This document shows, in pieces, positions 17,711 through 31,010 of a stretch of 31,010 nucleotides of DNA. This DNA comes from a virus. The notes under the pieces are model-generated. The model did no database searches. It had not been told where the DNA came from and worked only from the letters and a program-made list of their open reading frames with translations. Within the stretch, counting starts at the first letter, position 1; each line of letters starts with the position of its first letter. The position numbers and the translations under genes were made by a program. Location of the stretch: IMG/VR virus record IMGVR_UViG_3300042566_000650, positions 1 to 31,010 of that record; one strand, written 5' to 3'.

Positions 17711-17749
17711 AGATATTTATCTGAGATATTTATCTGAGATATTTATCTC
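17711..17749. repeat. Three tandem 13-bp palindromic repeats in a 5' leader
   Basis: AGATATTTATCTG is repeated at 17711-17723 and 17724-17736, and once more with a final C at 17737-17749. Each unit is itself an inverted repeat (AGATA-TT-TATCT). The array lies between GGGAG and the start codon of the membrane-protein gene. The paralogous leader at 20835-20850 has no array. Confidence 0.92.
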
Positions 17750-17772
17750 CCGTTTCATCAATTTATATAACT

Positions 17773-17800
17773 ATTATAGCAGAAATGGGTAGAAAGTCAA
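17773..17800 (-). promoter_or_regulatory. Early sigma-70 promoter
   Basis: TTGACT (17795-17800), 16 bp, TATAAT (17773-17778) with TGC before the -10. Promoter and leader down to GGGAGATAAA are nearly identical to those of the Cys-rich gene at 20834. Confidence 0.88.
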
Positions 17801-17829
17801 GCCTTTTTATATAAAAAGATTTCTTTAAT

Positions 17830-17844
17830 AAAATCAATAACTTA
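17830..17844 (-). repeat. Dispersed TAAGTTATTGATTTT element carrying a stop codon
   Basis: The TAA of the element is the stop codon of the gene at 17842. It is followed leftward by a weak GATTT/AAATC stem and TTTTT, so it probably ends the transcript just before the promoter at 17773. Confidence 0.6.
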
Positions 17845-20834: not shown

Positions 20835-20868
20835 CTTTTTATCTCCCGTTTCATCAATTTATATAACT

Positions 20869-20896
20869 ATTATAGCAGATTTGGGTAAGAAGTCAA
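20869..20896 (-). promoter_or_regulatory. Early sigma-70 promoter of the RNA ligase unit
   Basis: TTGACT (20891-20896), 16 bp, TATAAT (20869-20874) with TGC before the -10. The leader is almost the same as at 17743-17772. Confidence 0.9.
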
Positions 20897-20925
20897 GCCT
20901 TTTGATAAAAATAGATTTCTTTAAG

Positions 20926-20938
20926 AATCAATAACTTA
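20926..20938 (-). repeat. Dispersed TAAGTTATTGATT element carrying a stop codon
   Basis: TAA of the element is the stop of the gene at 20936. An imperfect palindrome GATTCTTAAAGAAATC follows, then TATTTTT, consistent with a weak terminator. Confidence 0.6.
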
Positions 20939-23553: not shown

Positions 23554-24828
23554 ATGAGCACACTAAAAATAATAACAAGTGCCATAGTATTCTGTGTTTT
23601 TAGTATGCCTGTATTTGGACAGGATACTACGACCATAAATACTACTAACGCAACTACAACCACAACCAATAACACCAATAACAATGTTATTACTAGTGAT
23701 AATACCAATACCAATGTAAACACCAGTACTGCTACAAACAATAATAATAATGTAAGTACTAGTGACAGTACCAATCTGAATACTAATATAAACACTAGTA
23801 CCAGTACTGCAACAAACAATAATAATAATGTTAGCACGAGTGACAGTACCAACTTGAATACTAATATAAACACCAGCACCGCTACCAATAATAATAATAA
23901 CGTTAATACAAGCACCAACGTAAACACAAATACATCTGTAAATACTAATAACAATACAAACAATAGTGTAAGTGCAAACACCAATAACAATATAAACACC
24001 AGTACTAGCACTGCTACCAATAATAATATAAACACAAGCACATCGGTTAACACGAACAATAATAACAACGTTAGCGTCAGTGATAATACAAATTTAAATA
24101 CTAATATTAATACAAGCACATCCGTTAATACCAACAATAACGTTAATACTAGCACTGCTACCAATAATAATAATAACGTTAATACAAGCACCAATGTAAA
24201 CACAAATAATAACAGTAGTGTGGTCACTAGTAACTCTAATAATGTTAACACTAGCAATAGCGTTAATGAAAATTTAAATGTCAATCAAAGTGTAAGCACA
24301 AGCGACAATAATATAAACCAAACAAGTGTAAACACAAATACCAACACAAATCAAAACTTAACTGTATCAGATAACACCAACAACAACTATAATGAAAACG
24401 TAACAAGAAACGAAAGCACTCAGCGTATTGAACAAGAAATTAACTCACCGCCTCCTAGTGCGATAGCACCTAGTATCGGTAGCAGTTACTCACAAGACTT
24501 GTGTACAACAGGCATCAGTGGAGCAGTACAAACACAAATATTTGGTTTATCTACTGGTAAAAGCATTACAGATGAAAATTGTGAACGAATAAAACTAAGC
24601 AAAACTCTTTACGATATGGGTATGCGTGTTGCTGCTGTATCACTAATGTGCCAAGACGAACGAGTATGGACTGCTATGAAAATGGCAGGAACTCCTTGCC
24701 CTTATGAAGGTAAGATTGGATCCGATGCTTCTATATCTTGGGAACTGAACAGAGAAGAAGTGCCTGGATACAATGAAAGACGAGATCGTGATGTAGCCAG
24801 TACTCCCAATATGCCGAGAAGTAGATGA
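23554..24828 (+). CDS. Secreted Asn/Thr-repeat protein with conserved Cys-containing C-terminal domain
   Basis: A 424-residue exported protein. The signal peptide is 'MSTLKIITSAIVFCVFSMPVFG', with cleavage before Q23. Residues about 24-290 consist almost only of Asn, Thr, Ser, Val, Ala, Ile and Asp in imperfect units of 22-25 residues (units such as 'NNNNNVSTSDSTNLNTNINT' followed by 'STAT'). Alternating polar-x-polar strands suggest a beta-solenoid or amyloid-like fibre. The last 130 residues are different: 'SPPPSAIAP', 'CTTGISGAVQTQIFGLSTG', 'NCERIKLSKTLYDMGM', 'MCQDERV', 'GTPCPY'. I recall this C-terminal domain from marine T4-like phages, without a function. It leads a five-gene cassette, overlapping the next gene by four bases. 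Confidence 0.85.
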   Translation: MSTLKIITSAIVFCVFSMPVFGQDTTTINTTNATTTTTNNTNNNVITSDNTNTNVNTSTATNNNNNVSTSDSTNLNTNINTSTSTATNNNNNVSTSDSTNLNTNINTSTATNNNNNVNTSTNVNTNTSVNTNNNTNNSVSANTNNNINTSTSTATNNNINTSTSVNTNNNNNVSVSDNTNLNTNINTSTSVNTNNNVNTSTATNNNNNVNTSTNVNTNNNSSVVTSNSNNVNTSNSVNENLNVNQSVSTSDNNINQTSVNTNTNTNQNLTVSDNTNNNYNENVTRNESTQRIEQEINSPPPSAIAPSIGSSYSQDLCTTGISGAVQTQIFGLSTGKSITDENCERIKLSKTLYDMGMRVAAVSLMCQDERVWTAMKMAGTPCPYEGKIGSDASISWELNREEVPGYNERRDRDVASTPNMPRSR

Positions 24829-26774
24829 AGCAGTTTTTATTACTTGTGTTGTTAGTCGTTTCTTCTATGGCTCACAGTCAAGATTACACACCAAACTTAA
24901 TTGACTATACTGGTTGGGTAAACGCTGGATCAGTAGGAGAACAACTTACGTGCTGGTCTCCTGGTGGTCCTGGATACTGTGGACCATTGCCTGCTGTAGG
25001 TGCGTTTAATAATCCCAGTTTGATTAATTTTTCGTATGGCTTAACTGACATTTATCAACCCGTTGATATAGCACAAGCATTGAGTGCTGCTGGTAGTGGC
25101 ATTATTGTTAACGGGTTTAGCTTTAACTTTATTGCTAAGAATGGTAATGGTTGGGATAACGGGCAACTTGATTACTTAACAGCGTATGCAAAGTTTTATA
25201 ACAATAATAGTTTAGTAGAATCCTACAACTATGATTTAAATTATAGATTCAATTGGACAAACTTCAATTATTCAGAAACTTTTACAAACCCGTATCAAAT
25301 AAATGATTTGGATGAGGTGAAAGTTGGATTTGTAGGTAGAGACACAAATGGTTGGGCAGGATTTTATGGGCCCGAAGTAAGGAACATTAATTTTAGATTG
25401 AATTATGGGATAGATCCTTGTTATGAAGATCCACTGTCATCAACTTCTTGTGCTGGATTTCAAGAAGCATTATTAGAATTACAATGTAATGGTGATCCAT
25501 TATCAAGTATAGATTGCCCTGGATACTTGGAAAATTTTATGTCAGAAATTGATATGAATTTAGATGAAGTTTTTGAAGATGAGATGTATGATGAATATAG
25601 TGAAGAAGAACTATACGAAGACTTAGAAGAGGAATTCTTTGAAGATGAATTCATAGCAGATGAAGAATTTTTAGATGATGAAGAACTGTTAGATGAGGAC
25701 TTAATAGCGGATGAAGAATTTTTAGATGAGGACTTATCAGACGGGGAGTCGGTATTGTCGTTGTTGAAATTAATTGGAATACTTAACAACACAGACGATG
25801 AATCTATTGATTCTTTAAGTCAGTATGATAGTAATACAATTATGGAAAACCAGATTGTTGAAACTATTACCTCAACAAATATTTCAATCATTAAAACAGA
25901 TGATATTGCCGAACCGGTTAAACAAGAAAATATTATAAGAGTTGAAGTTACACAATTAACAGAACAAAGCGTTAGCTCTGATTCATTGATTGCAGAAATT
26001 GCAGATCAAGATGAAAAGCAAGTAGAAGATATAGAAACCACAGTTGATGACACGCTGATTGTTGACGATAATATAGAAGAAGAACTAGAAACAATTATTG
26101 CTGTTTCACCTTCGAGTAACGTCAGTGAAACAAATATTGAAACACTTCTTTCCGATAACACGGTACAAGAAAATAATACAGAAACAGTAGTTGCTGCTAC
26201 CGAACAAGTTAGTGAGGAAGAAGAAACAAGTGTAGGAAATATTGTAGCACAAGAAGAAACAAATAATAATGAAGAAACAACAAATGACAGTTTTGATGAT
26301 ATAACATTGATGAGTGAAGTTAGTTTGGATGTTGTAACCACTGCTACTTCTACATTCAATAATAATTCTATGCAACAAGTATTAGCATTGGGAGGAACAA
26401 TAACAGAAATACTGAATACTCCAGTTCCTGATTTTAGTAGATTTGAAATTAAGCCGCCTACACAAGACGAACAAGTACAAACAGCCAAAGTAGAAAATAC
26501 GATAGAAACTATGAGTACAGAAGAGATAGAAAGTCAAGCAGAGATAAGAATAGGATCTATGGATCCAGAGTCTCAAGCAATAGCATTACAGTTAATAGGA
26601 TATAAACAAGGATTTGATCAGTATGGCGGAATGCTTGTTGATCAGAGTAATTGGTATTTAGATAGAGGCATGTATACAAACAACCGTGTACCAGCAGTAT
26701 CTAGTTCCAATCAAATATTTGGTGCGCAGGATCAAAGACACCAAGAACTAATGTCATTACAATACGGGAGATAA
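24825..26774 (+). CDS. Large secreted acidic protein with CPGY repeats
   Basis: A 649-residue exported protein. Signal peptide 'MKQFLLLVLLVVSSMAHSQ' (1-19). Residues 20-190 form a beta-rich domain with a 'TCWSPGGPGYCGP' disulfide loop and aromatic strands. Two copies of a 'DPLSS-x-C-x-G-[FY]' motif follow ('DPLSSTSCAGFQEAL', 'DPLSSIDCPGYLENF'). Residues about 240-305 are an extremely acidic Asp/Glu/Leu tract. A long Glu/Thr/Ser/Val-rich, probably disordered part (310-570) leads to a compact end ('LIGYKQGFDQYGGM', 'RHQELMSLQYGR'). The CPGY motif and this end are ones I recall from marine T4-like phage proteins. The acidic tract may bind calcium, which would suit the EF-hand neighbour. Function unknown. 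Confidence 0.82.
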   Translation: MKQFLLLVLLVVSSMAHSQDYTPNLIDYTGWVNAGSVGEQLTCWSPGGPGYCGPLPAVGAFNNPSLINFSYGLTDIYQPVDIAQALSAAGSGIIVNGFSFNFIAKNGNGWDNGQLDYLTAYAKFYNNNSLVESYNYDLNYRFNWTNFNYSETFTNPYQINDLDEVKVGFVGRDTNGWAGFYGPEVRNINFRLNYGIDPCYEDPLSSTSCAGFQEALLELQCNGDPLSSIDCPGYLENFMSEIDMNLDEVFEDEMYDEYSEEELYEDLEEEFFEDEFIADEEFLDDEELLDEDLIADEEFLDEDLSDGESVLSLLKLIGILNNTDDESIDSLSQYDSNTIMENQIVETITSTNISIIKTDDIAEPVKQENIIRVEVTQLTEQSVSSDSLIAEIADQDEKQVEDIETTVDDTLIVDDNIEEELETIIAVSPSSNVSETNIETLLSDNTVQENNTETVVAATEQVSEEEETSVGNIVAQEETNNNEETTNDSFDDITLMSEVSLDVVTTATSTFNNNSMQQVLALGGTITEILNTPVPDFSRFEIKPPTQDEQVQTAKVENTIETMSTEEIESQAEIRIGSMDPESQAIALQLIGYKQGFDQYGGMLVDQSNWYLDRGMYTNNRVPAVSSSNQIFGAQDQRHQELMSLQYGR

Positions 26775-26779
26775 TAAAC

Positions 26780-27097
26780 ATGGTAAAAAAATTACAAGAC
26801 AATTCAGAATATAACCAATATGATGCTGACGGCGACGGAATAGTTTCCGATGAAGAAATTGCTAAAGCAGAACGTTTAGCAGAATTAGAAAACAAAGACA
26901 GAAAAGAAGATCAGTTAAGACAAATGGCTTGGGTAGCTATGGGTTCTATGGTGTTTTTTACTATTGCACTATTCTTACCATTTTTAAGCGTAGAAAGACT
27001 TACTGCGTTAGATAACTTGTTAAGCATGTTTTATATCGCACAAGCAGGTGTAGTAGCAACATTCTTTGGTTCTAGTGCTTATATGTCAAGAAGCTAA
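26780..27097 (+). CDS. EF-hand membrane protein
   Basis: A 105-residue protein. One canonical EF-hand loop is at residues 14-25: 'YDADGDGIVSDEE', with D15, D17, D19, I21 and E25/E26 in the right positions, so calcium binding is likely. A charged linker (AERLAELENKDRKEDQLRQ) leads to two transmembrane helices, at about 52-70 ('MAWVAMGSMVFFTIALFLP') and 80-98 ('LLSMFYIAQAGVVATFFG'). GGGAG precedes the ATG. The calcium site with two helices suggests a sensor or a regulated channel/holin, by inference. It follows the acidic protein by five bases. Confidence 0.8.
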   Translation: MVKKLQDNSEYNQYDADGDGIVSDEEIAKAERLAELENKDRKEDQLRQMAWVAMGSMVFFTIALFLPFLSVERLTALDNLLSMFYIAQAGVVATFFGSSAYMSRS

Positions 27098-27117
27098 AAT
27101 AAAATAGGGGTAAAGTT

Positions 27118-27579
27118 ATGTTGGAAATAGGTATAGCACTCAATATGGCTGTTTCTGCTTTCAATGGTATAAAGAAAGCAGTTGAAGCAGGAAGAGAGAT
27201 AGAAGATGTTGCGGGTTATTTTGGCAAATTTTTTGATGCAAAAGAAACCATATCTGAAGCATCACAATATAATGAAAATGCCCCTTTATTCAAAAAAATA
27301 TTCGCAGGCAAAAGTGTAGAAGCTCAAGCCTTAGAAATTACTGCAGCCAAACATAAAGCAGCAAAAATAGAAAAAGAGTTGCGCGAATTTCTTATCTATT
27401 CTGGTCAAGCTCAGTTTTATGAAGATATGCTGAGAGAAAGAAGACATATCAGAGAAGCTAGAATAGAAAAAGCAAGAGCAAATGCTATAAGTAAAAAGTT
27501 TTGGATTGATGCGTTTTTTATAGGATTTCTTTTAACGACTATTTTTATCCTATTAGGTATGATAATAAGAATAATTTAA
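27118..27579 (+). CDS. Helical protein with C-terminal membrane anchor
   Basis: A 153-residue protein: an amphipathic N-terminal part ('IGIALNMAVSAFNGIKKAVE'), a long charged helix region ('KHKAAKIEKELREFLIYSG', 'RERRHIREARIEKARANA'), then one strong transmembrane helix near the end ('WIDAFFIGFLLTTIFILLGM'). This resembles a tail-anchored protein with most of its mass in the cytoplasm. AGGGGT precedes the ATG. It is part of the five-gene cassette; the function is unknown. Confidence 0.78.
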   Translation: MLEIGIALNMAVSAFNGIKKAVEAGREIEDVAGYFGKFFDAKETISEASQYNENAPLFKKIFAGKSVEAQALEITAAKHKAAKIEKELREFLIYSGQAQFYEDMLRERRHIREARIEKARANAISKKFWIDAFFIGFLLTTIFILLGMIIRII

Positions 27580-27598
27580 ATTTTGAGGTAATAACATC

Positions 27599-28123
27599 AT
27601 GAGTGATGAAGAAAACAAAACAGCACAAGTAGAATTTGCCGGAATGAGTTTAAGCGGTAGTAAACTGCTATTGTTGATACCTATTTTAAGTGCATTAGGC
27701 GGAGCACTTTGGGGAGGATTTGAAGTGTATCAGCGTTTGTTGGATGCTGAAGAAGCTGTCACAAGTTATATTGCTCCTGATATGTCAGGCATAGAACAAC
27801 AGTTAGCAGTACAGCAAACACAAATGAACGAGTTTAAAACAGCCATAGATCAACAGTTTGCTACTACTAATCAATTGTTAGCCGAACAACGCACTCAAAT
27901 AAATGATATCAGACAAAGTATGCGTGATCAAGAATCATTGGTTAGAACTATTGACGAAAATACCGCAACTACCCAGCGTGATTTAAGAAACGATGTGTAT
28001 GAAATGGAAAAAGAACTTAATGATAGAGTTAAAGAGTTAGATACTACTTTAAGAACGGTCCGCGAAGATTTAGAAAAGAAAATGCAGGAAATTTTAGCGA
28101 ATCCTTTAAATACGGTTGAGTAA
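27599..28123 (+). CDS. Membrane-anchored coiled-coil protein
   Basis: A 174-residue protein. A short N-terminal part is followed by a transmembrane helix at about 22-42 ('KLLLLIPILSALGGALWGGF'), then about 125 residues of charged and Gln-rich heptad sequence ('LAVQQTQMNEFKTAIDQQFA', 'RDLRNDVYEMEKELNDRVKE') ending 'EILANPLNTVE'. The shape matches a periplasm-spanning coiled coil such as an i-spanin, but the orientation is not certain. GAGGT precedes the ATG. I recall similar proteins with an 'ANPL' end in marine T4-like phages. It is the last gene of the cassette. Confidence 0.8.
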   Translation: MSDEENKTAQVEFAGMSLSGSKLLLLIPILSALGGALWGGFEVYQRLLDAEEAVTSYIAPDMSGIEQQLAVQQTQMNEFKTAIDQQFATTNQLLAEQRTQINDIRQSMRDQESLVRTIDENTATTQRDLRNDVYEMEKELNDRVKELDTTLRTVREDLEKKMQEILANPLNTVE

Positions 28124-28140
28124 ACTTGAACATTTGTTGC

Positions 28141-28176
28141 ACACCCTCTTTATTAAATACATATAAAGAGGAGTGT
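28141..28176 (+). promoter_or_regulatory. Hairpin covering the ribosome binding site of the HXXSHH gene
   Basis: ACACCCTCTTTA (28141-28152) pairs with TAAAGAGG-a-GTGT (28164-28176): 12 bp with one bulged A and an 11-base loop. The right arm contains the Shine-Dalgarno (AAGAGGAG) of the ATG at 28180. When folded, the mRNA would hide its ribosome binding site. Confidence 0.75.
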
Positions 28177-28179
28177 AAA

Positions 28180-29418
28180 ATGTTTTTAAAAAACAAACCG
28201 TTATCTCGTAGAACATTATTAAAAGGTGCAGGTTTCAGCTTAACACTGCCCATGTTAGATGCTATGATACCTACTGTTACCGCAGCTCCTATTGCTGATC
28301 CTAAGTTAGCTTTCATTTACTTTCCTCACGGTGCTGTAATGAAATATTGGACTCCTCAACAAACAGGTAAAGACTTTGAGTTTTCACCCATACTAAAACC
28401 ATTAGAACCTCTTAGAGACTATGTTACTGTAGTAAGCGGATTGAGAAACAAAGGAGGTGAAAGTTCCAATCCTCATAGTATCATTGAAGAAACTTGGTTA
28501 ACTTGTGTAGCACCAGACCAAAGAACAGGTGAACAAGGTTTAAGTGCTGATCAGATTGCAGCTAAGCACTTTACAAATACACCTCTGAGTTCGTTAGAAT
28601 TATGCGGCGAACCCGGCGGATCACTTAGCTATCGTTCTAACAATCAAGCATTACCGCTTGAAGGCAATCCCAGAAAGGTATATTATACCATGTTCGGGGA
28701 AGGTGACAACTATCAAGATCGCATGAACATTCTAACACAGAAAAATAGCTTGTTAGACTATGTAATGGAGAGTACTAAATCACTAAATAAGAAACTGGAT
28801 AACAACGACAAACTTAAAGTGGAAGAGTATTTGAGCAGTGTACGCGATATTGAAAAGCGCATATCAGGGTTAGAAAGCAGTGCTAGTGGTCTTACTGATT
28901 TACCAGAAGCTCCTATTGGTCCGCCCGACGATTTTGAAGCACTATTAGATATTCAGTATGAAATGATGGCATTAGCATTACAAACAGGACAAACTCGTAT
29001 CGTGAGTATGCGCACAGTTAAAGAAGCCAGTATGAGAGTGTTCAGCAACTTGGGCATTGAGGAAGCGTTTCATCCACTTAGCCATCATCAAGAAAATGAA
29101 GCCAAGTACGAACAATTAGTAAGACTACAGCGTTGGCAAACTGAACGCGCTGCTAAATTTGCTCTTAGACTAAAAGATATGGGTTTACTTGACGATACCG
29201 TGATCTTATTTGGTTCTAACATGAGCAATTCAGACAGACATAATAACGATCCACTACCGTCAGTGCTAATTGGTCGTGCAGGTGGCATTAAAGGTAATCA
29301 GCACTTAGCTTATGCTCAAGATACTTCCCATGCTCGTTTGATACACACAATGTTAGAAAAGACTGGTGTACACTTAGATCAGTTTGCTGATAGTACAGGA
29401 TCATTATTAGAAGTATAA
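28180..29418 (+). CDS. Tat-exported HXXSHH (DUF1552) protein
   Basis: A 412-residue protein. ATG 28180 is chosen for its AAGAGGAG site and because it starts the signal peptide: 'SRRTLLKGAGFSLTLP' (9-24) is a twin-arginine (Tat) export signal, with likely cleavage near 'VTAAP' (33-37). Family-defining 'HPLSHH' is at 298-303 (HXXSHH, PF07586). Other conserved-looking parts are 'AFIYFPHGAV' (44-53), 'VSGLRNKGG' (85-93) and 'ILFGSNMSNSDRH'. The fold resembles the alkaline-phosphatase/sulfatase group in outline; the function is unknown. The family is typical of Planctomycetes, myxobacteria and marine Gammaproteobacteria, not phages. It follows the cassette by 56 bases. Confidence 0.9.
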   Translation: MFLKNKPLSRRTLLKGAGFSLTLPMLDAMIPTVTAAPIADPKLAFIYFPHGAVMKYWTPQQTGKDFEFSPILKPLEPLRDYVTVVSGLRNKGGESSNPHSIIEETWLTCVAPDQRTGEQGLSADQIAAKHFTNTPLSSLELCGEPGGSLSYRSNNQALPLEGNPRKVYYTMFGEGDNYQDRMNILTQKNSLLDYVMESTKSLNKKLDNNDKLKVEEYLSSVRDIEKRISGLESSASGLTDLPEAPIGPPDDFEALLDIQYEMMALALQTGQTRIVSMRTVKEASMRVFSNLGIEEAFHPLSHHQENEAKYEQLVRLQRWQTERAAKFALRLKDMGLLDDTVILFGSNMSNSDRHNNDPLPSVLIGRAGGIKGNQHLAYAQDTSHARLIHTMLEKTGVHLDQFADSTGSLLEV

Positions 29419-29443
29419 TTTATGGTAAAAAATTAATCAAATC

Positions 29444-29472
29444 TTGACAGGCCTGTCACATAATTTTAACAT
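29444..29472 (+). promoter_or_regulatory. Sigma-70 promoter of the TonB-receptor gene
   Basis: TTGACA (29444-29449), 17 bp, TAACAT (29467-29472). The -35 is buried in the palindrome TGACAGGCCTGTCA (29445-29458). It differs from the leftward promoter family in spacer sequence and length. Confidence 0.6.
29445..29458. promoter_or_regulatory. Candidate operator: perfect 14-bp palindrome
   Basis: TGACAGGCCTGTCA is a perfect palindrome without a loop, more like a dimer-binding site than a terminator, and overlaps the -35. TGTCACA (29454-29460) is repeated inverted as TGTGACA at 29490-29496, giving three TGACA-type half-sites in 52 bases. A repressor here would block the promoter. Confidence 0.5.
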
Positions 29473-29479
29473 AGTATTT

Positions 29480-29487
29480 AATAAATA
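29480..29487 (+). promoter_or_regulatory. Late-promoter-like AATAAATA
   Basis: AATAAATA differs by one base from the T4 late consensus TATAAATA and lies 37 bases before the receptor ATG. Chance occurrence is likely in AT-rich DNA, so this is only a possible second start. Confidence 0.25.
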
Positions 29488-29523
29488 TGTGTGACAAAAT
29501 TATAACAGTCAAGGATAATATAA

Positions 29524-31010
29524 ATGAATAAACTCAATAAACTTTTCACGGCACTTTTTATAAGTGCCATTTCTTTATCAACCCAGGCACAACCCTCGCT
29601 AGAAGAAATAGTAGTTACAGCTACCAAAAGAGAAACAAACTTAATTGATACACCCATATCAATGTCAGTAGTAAGCTCAAAGAATTTACAAGAAAGACAC
29701 GTACAAAGCTTAATGGACTTGGCTGATGGTTCTGTTCCTGGATTAAACATAGCTCCATTTGAATCTAGACAATCTGCTGTTACTATTGGTATTAGGGGTA
29801 TTGTTCCTCTTGATGCTAATCAACCAGCGCGTGAACAAGGAGTAGGTGTTTACATAGATGGAGTATACTTAGGTAGACAACATGGATTGAACGCAGCATT
29901 GCTAGACTTAGAAAGAATTGAAGTACTAAAAGGACCTCAAGGTACACTCTTTGGTAGAAACACAGAAGGTGGTGCGTTAAGTATGGTAACAAAAAAACCC
30001 ACTGGCGAATTTGACTTTAGAATGAATACGGGAGCAGGTAACTATAATAGTAATAATATAGACTTTCATATTAACTTACCTACATTCTTTAATGTAATGA
30101 CCAAGATAGATGGGATCACTCAGTATCAAGATGCTACTACTAAAAATCCATTAGCCGGTGAAACTGGTTGGAACTTTTTTGAAAGAAAGGGATTTAAAAT
30201 AGCTAACAGATTAGAAACTGATAACTTTACTTTTGATTATTCATATGATGTAAGTATGGATGCGAACAGTCCCTTTTATAGTCAATTGCTTAATTACAAT
30301 CCCATGAATTTGCCAAATGTAACTCCTCTTCCTCCTATGGTAGTTGTAAACGGTTCTAGTATCATGAAAAAAGGTGATATTGGTGTTCCGCAACAACCTA
30401 GCGTAGCTGATGTAGGTGGTCAAAGTTTTAATATTATTTGGGATGTAACAGACAACTTAGAGTTTAGATCAATCACAGCTAAGCGTTGGGTAGATTCTAC
30501 ACAGTGGGATAATGCTGGCGGTGCTCACAGAATTCCAGTAGCTAAAGCAAACAGTGTATTCAGTAGATATAGTGTTTCTGAACTTCATCAAACACAATTT
30601 AGTCAAGAGTTTCAGTTAGTAGGAAGCACTGATACTATTGATTACGTAGCTGGTTTATACTACTTTACTGAAGACGCATATGAAGAAGCAGCCACTCCTT
30701 CAACTAATACTTGGAACTTTACTCTAACTGGTTATACTATAAATGATCTTACCCCAACTCAACCAGGTAAAAGATTTATAGATAGAGGTAGTAGAGCCAC
30801 TGCTGTTAGTAGCGCAGTGTTTTCACAGGCTACTTATACCCCTATTAATTTTGAAAGACTACATATAACATTAGGCGGAAGATATACTAAAGACGATAAA
30901 TCAGGCGAGTTGTATCTTTTAAGAAATAACCCATCACCGTACTCTTTCATAGAAATTTCTAAAAGATTTAATCCTTTAGCAATCGTTGCGTTTGATGTTA
31001 CTGATGGTAT
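29524..31010 (+). CDS. TonB-dependent outer-membrane receptor, N-terminal 495 codons
   Basis: Open from ATG 29524 to the window end. The signal peptide is 'MNKLNKLFTALFISAISLST' (1-20, cleavage near QA-Q23). 'SLEEIVVTATKRE' (25-37) is the TonB-box region of this receptor class. The plug domain follows: 'TIGIRGI' (87-93), 'VYIDGVYLGR' (109-118), 'RIEVLKGPQGTLFGRNTEGG' (131-150). The beta-barrel strands start after about 165, including 'LHITLGGRYTKDD'. Such receptors import siderophores, vitamins, glycans or other large nutrients using TonB energy; the substrate cannot be read here. It resembles receptors of marine Proteobacteria. AAGGA precedes the ATG. No frameshift is seen. Presence beside phage genes is very unusual. 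Confidence 0.92.
   Translation, partial: MNKLNKLFTALFISAISLSTQAQPSLEEIVVTATKRETNLIDTPISMSVVSSKNLQERHVQSLMDLADGSVPGLNIAPFESRQSAVTIGIRGIVPLDANQPAREQGVGVYIDGVYLGRQHGLNAALLDLERIEVLKGPQGTLFGRNTEGGALSMVTKKPTGEFDFRMNTGAGNYNSNNIDFHINLPTFFNVMTKIDGITQYQDATTKNPLAGETGWNFFERKGFKIANRLETDNFTFDYSYDVSMDANSPFYSQLLNYNPMNLPNVTPLPPMVVVNGSSIMKKGDIGVPQQPSVADVGGQSFNIIWDVTDNLEFRSITAKRWVDSTQWDNAGGAHRIPVAKANSVFSRYSVSELHQTQFSQEFQLVGSTDTIDYVAGLYYFTEDAYEEAATPSTNTWNFTLTGYTINDLTPTQPGKRFIDRGSRATAVSSAVFSQATYTPINFERLHITLGGRYTKDDKSGELYLLRNNPSPYSFIEISKRFNPLAIVAFDVTDG

Follow-up and report, generated by a model that had tools for sequence, protein, structure and literature searches.

A TonB-dependent receptor (TBDR) gene and an HXXSHH (DUF1552) protein gene lie inside phage genomes and recur there. 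Both genes were found in a stretch of 31,010 bases from an IMG/VR record, which is referred to in full as the window. We lean slightly towards the reading that the pair is genuine cargo of T4-like jumbo phages, in which the TBDR would be a working importer that is produced late, is powered by host TonB, and benefits phage production.

Layout of the window and phage context of the genes

The HXXSHH protein (PF07586) of 412 aa is encoded on the plus strand at 28180..29418 and was identified from Pfam, its homologues, and its predicted fold. The TBDR is encoded on the same strand at 29524..31010 and was identified from the Pfam Plug domain. The sequence-only reading had described this receptor as intact. 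That holds for the visible part, but the end of the window cuts the gene at residue 495 of 741, and the full protein is present in the virus contig G001. The spacing of the genes was confirmed, where the ATG of HXXSHH at 28180 is 56 bases past the stop of the preceding gene (27599-28123) and the TBDR start is 105 bases past the HXXSHH end. A five-gene phage cassette lies upstream of HXXSHH on the plus strand (23554..28123). It encodes an N/T-repeat secreted protein, an acidic secreted protein, and three small membrane proteins, and its order is equal or nearly equal in G001, G002, and G003. The secreted and small membrane proteins at 23554-26774 and 26780-28123 have no assigned function. For the coiled-coil protein of the cassette, 249 relatives are present in viral contigs and a further one in Pelagibacter phage HTVC115P. 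The window has no tRNA genes. A direct repeat of 103 bases, 90% identical and apparently intergenic, is found at 17742-17844 and 20838-20938.

The window aligns over all 31,010 bases with positions 110315-141324 of G001 (266,967 bases) with 5 mismatches and no gaps (99.98% identity). The TBDR gene of G001 is complete and is followed on its 3' side by a GT2 glycosyltransferase gene and then by a gene for a calcineurin-like, LpxH-like phosphoesterase, to which the UDP-2,3-diacylglucosamine diphosphatase models match below their cut-off. Further on, the other strand encodes a RecA-family UvsX (PF00154), gp32 (PF08804), and a T4-type terminase (PF03237) that is nearest to those of PA5oct-like jumbo phages (49% identity). 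Phage genes hence resume to the right of the receptor, which extension of the contig had been proposed to reveal. With these three genes, the sheath, tube, and baseplate genes, and a genome above 200 kb, G001 is a T4-like jumbo phage. The contig G002 (158,915 bases) has two tandem HXXSHH genes and a TBDR gene with the same cassette, where the genes are 76% and 77% identical to those of G001. The two contigs bear out that T4-like phages carry the pair. G003 (L005) and L004 have the TBDR at the same place without HXXSHH, which points to gain or loss of HXXSHH beside a resident TBDR. In G003, L004, and L007, the glycosyltransferase and phosphoesterase follow the TBDR as in G001.

A chimeric contig, or host DNA that was packaged by error, had been named as the alternative. 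The TBDR is indeed cut by the end of the window, and the two families are of cellular type. However, G001 crosses the junction and has phage genes again beyond it, G002, G003, L004, and many other contigs have the TBDR among phage genes, and the phage copies group in their own clades. The composition is also phage-like. A comparison of composition on the two sides of the junction had been suggested as a check, and no break was found at 28130: GC is 0.35-0.39 on both sides, and it is 0.53-0.70 at the closest bacterial TBDR loci inspected. The alternative is refuted by the 267-kb G001, its 159-kb relative G002, and the many further contigs, and we give it practically no chance.

Distribution among viral contigs

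The scans covered 2.9 million viral contigs. The TBDR subfamily was identified in 22 of them and HXXSHH in 12, and the carriers include contigs of 333 and 358 kb. Most of these phages carry either the TBDR or HXXSHH. When 24 records were searched with both family models, no record had more than one TBDR, and both families occurred together only in G001 and G002, besides the window that matches G001. A search of seven phage records turned up no TonB.

The TBDR subfamily is located mostly amid T4-like jumbo-phage genes, at many differing genomic positions. It is thus a cellular gene between phage genes whose place differs among relatives, as is the case for host-derived cargo. Its neighbours are often homologues of G001-G003 genes and vary between phages. 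All of the 18 tabulated loci have such homologues on one or both sides of the TBDR, and 9 have them on both. The neighbours, named by sequence resemblance, include ClpX/ClpP-like proteins, clamp, clamp loader, gp46/47-like nucleases, helicases, and nucleotide enzymes. Three contigs (L043, L239, and L247) have just one weak homologue of G001-G003 genes and may belong to another phage type. Upstream of the TBDR in the viral contig L041 (2820-7811) are genes for CsgF, CsgG, and curlin-like repeats together with a tryptophan halogenase gene.

The general TBDR motif EVLxGPQGTLFG matches 24 viral contigs, of which 20 belong to the present subfamily, three to a second phage subfamily, and one to a probable prophage edge. 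The same motif has 95 matches in 13 bacterial genomes and the subfamily motif has 14 (about one per genome); related viral contigs in this contrast are not independent, so it is given without a p-value. The contrast is conservative because the 13 bacteria were picked for owning the subfamily. Members of the second, divergent subfamily (EEIVVVAEKRDENLKD...) adjoin ribonucleotide reductase genes in L254 and L268 and tail-like genes in L264. The TBDR of L251 was set aside as a probable host flank at a prophage edge, where a divergent receptor and an integrase-like gene share a contig of high GC. The matches in the isolated-phage collection were also set aside, as they are weak (25-37% identity, mostly partial) and come from records that resemble bacterial DNA.

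Features and origin of the TBDR

The Plug domain (PF07715) spans residues 40-151 of the TBDR and scores 66.3 bits in the window and 65-66 bits overall (cut-off 23.9). A signal peptide was seen by inspection, and the TonB-box region EEIVVTAT lies at 29602-29625. In the alignment, the region EEIVVTATKRE near the N-terminus is conserved in phage and bacterial members. The Pfam barrel model gave no match to the C-terminal part. The barrel was recognised from full-length alignments with TIGR01785 (26-707), FhuA chains (33-718), and bacterial TBDRs. SusC/RagA models are absent among the 23 NCBIfam families listed for the TBDR at E 0.01.

In the maximum-likelihood tree, the TBDRs of phages (15 rows) fall into two supported groups of 10 and 5 amid the receptors of proteobacteria, and well-supported branches force at least three label changes. 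The phage genes derive from at least two transfers. The phage TBDR evidently evolves under purifying selection, with dN/dS of 0.068-0.083 between close phages. Of the 223 phage-invariant positions, 186 are occupied by the identical residue in 90% or more of the bacterial members. The positions common to phages and bacteria include the TonB-box region and the motifs GYRxGGASSR and QxDNxxG.

Beyond closely related pairs, the ten bacterial TBDR loci that were inspected have no neighbour in common, and the neighbourhood gives no clue to the ligand. The solved structures were uninformative in this respect: even the closest ones, siderophore receptors among others, show little similarity.

Features and origin of the HXXSHH protein

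The HXXSHH protein matches PF07586 with 256.5 bits (cut-off 30). Its twin-arginine signal SRRTLLKG (28204-28227) is present and its motif HPLSHH (29071-29088) is intact. A structure model from 3 sequences reached a pLDDT of 39 and was discarded. The model was redone with 13 sequences and reached a pLDDT of 75 and a pTM of 0.80. Foldseek matched it to LtaS and sulfatases with an E-value of 3e-6 and a probability of 1.0, at a TM score of only ~0.42. The HXXSHH profile gave chance-level matches only against solved structures. The predicted model resembles the alkaline phosphatase/sulfatase superfamily and suggests that the protein may be an exported phospho- or sulfo-hydrolase or transferase. The two genes had been described together as uptake genes. 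For HXXSHH this goes too far, as the predicted fold resembles that of an exported hydrolase or transferase and not that of a transporter; for the TBDR, conservation favours uptake.

For HXXSHH, well-supported branches require at least two label changes, and the best tree has four. Two tandem-like HXXSHH genes are also present in L062 (6182-9425), where the small protein between them resembles an iron-sulfur assembly protein. HXXSHH was hence duplicated more than once in phages.

The metagenome-assembled genome (MAG) G042 (Umea_bin-10690) is the sole owner of both families among 369 genomes of its class. Its TBDR is 60% identical and sits inside a phage clade of the maximum-likelihood tree, and its HXXSHH proteins are 53-54% identical. 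It has 10 HXXSHH matches. The five copies inspected lie between DUF1592-type and ankyrin-like proteins, which was confirmed by Pfam for one of them. Our best guess from these sequence relationships is that a lineage of the G042 type was donor or host, and phage-to-bacterium transfer is possible as well. The proteobacterial MAGs G040, G041, and G042 (the genomes of L211, L178, and L143) have 10-19 HXXSHH matches each.

Late-promoter motifs and start-site hairpins

The heptamer ATAAATA is the most enriched upstream of the 241 genes of G001 (42 observed, 2.7 expected). The T4 late promoter TATAAATA has this heptamer as its core. It precedes the sheath, tube, baseplate, and terminase genes of G001 and is absent before nrdA, dnaB, the helicase, and rIIA. 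In the window, this T4-like core lies on the plus strand at 29481..29487, 43 bases before the TBDR start. It is found 43-45 bases before the TBDR in G001, G003, and L004, with the full TATAAATA in G003 and L004. In L060 and L061, the core lies 30-33 bases ahead of HXXSHH. The chance rate of the motif is ~0.02 per 100 bases. In G002 and most other phages, no consensus late promoter was found ahead of the TBDR; their late motif may deviate from ATAAATA. The promoter motifs support a predicted late transcription of the TBDR.

A hairpin on the plus strand at 28145..28171 (z ~-5) precedes HXXSHH and pairs part of its ribosome-binding site. Its loop (28154-28162) contains TAAATA, a late-promoter-like site with one mismatch. 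L060 (HXXSHH, before 6285) and G002 (TBDR) likewise have strong hairpins at the start site. Comparable hairpins are located before 11550 in L003, where the TAAATA match is weaker, and before the ORF 62457-63350 in G001. In the window, L060, L003, and G001, the ribosome-binding site or start codon is paired, with a TAAATA-like site within or beside the hairpin. Such hairpins keep some late genes of T4 untranslated on read-through transcripts. The start-site hairpins are possibly a phage-wide switch of late translation. Because 10 of the 241 gene starts of G001 fold equally strongly, the hairpin is supporting evidence only and is weak alone.

Proposed role and alternative explanations

In the reading that we favour, the TBDR would be transcribed late from a T4-type late promoter, exported, and inserted into the host outer membrane, where host TonB would power it. 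The ligand that it imports would be that of its proteobacterial relatives, and phage production would benefit from the uptake. The HXXSHH protein would be exported via Tat and act in the envelope as a phospho- or sulfo-hydrolase or transferase that possibly frees or processes a substrate. Export and insertion into the membrane are inferred, as are the uptake and the advantage for the phage. The TBDR retains what a working transporter needs, including the TonB box and the positions common with bacterial transporters, which favours real, TonB-powered late uptake. That G001, G002, and G003 have phage genes to the left and right was counted for this reading. Counted against it were the few T4-like homologues in L043, L239, and L247, the lack of a conserved neighbour that hints at a ligand, the TM score of the HXXSHH fold match, and the promoter missing in most phages. 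The two proteins possibly act jointly, but the genes are usually apart, which counts against this. Remodelling of the host outer membrane, as the sequence-only reading had proposed, is plausible as a general idea, and the signal sequences, TonB box, purifying selection, and late promoters fit it.

TBDRs serve as receptors for many phages, and the late TBDR could instead control superinfection and competition. It would displace host receptors, compete for TonB, or act as a decoy for phages or bacteriocins, while HXXSHH, the glycosyltransferase, and the LpxH-like enzyme would alter surface groups. The late promoter fits this role, as do the envelope-type enzymes after the TBDR in G001, G003, L004, and L007, and phages do act on such receptors, as Cor does on FhuA (PMC11436027). 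However, the TonB-box region and the transporter positions are kept, of which a decoy or blocker would have no need, and the TBDR occurs mostly without HXXSHH and the envelope enzymes; we consider this role rather unlikely. The TBDR could also be the adsorption receptor of the phage itself, placed in membranes and shed vesicles to sensitise neighbour cells. The use of TBDRs by phages and the late timing agree with this, but a receptor made in a cell that is already infected would by itself waste progeny, and the strong conservation common with bacteria does not require such a role; we find it very improbable. That T4-like jumbo phages domesticated one TBDR subfamily as a late outer-membrane device for phage ecology and not for feeding, whether for superinfection control or for seeding receptors on neighbour cells, with HXXSHH as a phage-deployed envelope enzyme, is doubtful in our view.

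Relation to known systems

A putative SusC-type TBDR in the marine megaphage Mar_Mega_1 and in LR745206 has been proposed, in one sentence, to raise carbohydrate uptake (PMC9723777). What is alike is the presence of a TBDR in a phage with a very large genome; the differences are the SusC type, the restriction to two genomes, and the absence of HXXSHH. LR745206 has two Plug domains and, in the searched collection, no match to the window TBDR at E 1e-5. The pelagiphage Polarivirus skadi has a gene annotated as TBDR between its tail tube and capsid genes, which its authors took as a hint of an adsorption receptor (PMC10504331). It is similar in that annotation and differs in being a small podophage.

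The proteobacterial subfamily (Caulobacter, Brevundimonas, Sphingomonas, Novosphingobium, and uncultured Gammaproteobacteria) is 50-60% identical over the whole protein and has the same motifs and TonB-box region. It differs in being chromosomal, at GC 0.53-0.70, and in that each genome has several TBDRs, about one of which belongs to the subfamily. The HXXSHH proteins of uncultured proteobacteria, represented by G042, resemble the phage proteins in identity, Tat-type signal, and HXXSHH motif. They differ in their DUF1592-type and ankyrin neighbours, whereas the phage copies stand alone or as a tandem pair.

In the open (non-subscription) literature, we found no report of the present TBDR subfamily in T4-like phages, nor of its breadth, nor of HXXSHH in any phage. 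Auxiliary genes of phages are mostly regarded as serving inner metabolism. If the favoured or the competing roles are true, infected cells would gain from phages a new means of transport at their surface, or rivals would be blocked there. Many jumbo phages share a complete and conserved transporter of the outer membrane, which was apparently acquired at least twice from proteobacteria. The choice of a single TBDR subfamily leads to the testable prediction that one ligand matters to these infections. HXXSHH/DUF1552, an uncharacterised family of exported bacterial proteins, gains a phage context, and a lineage like Umea_bin-10690 is indicated as a candidate donor or host.
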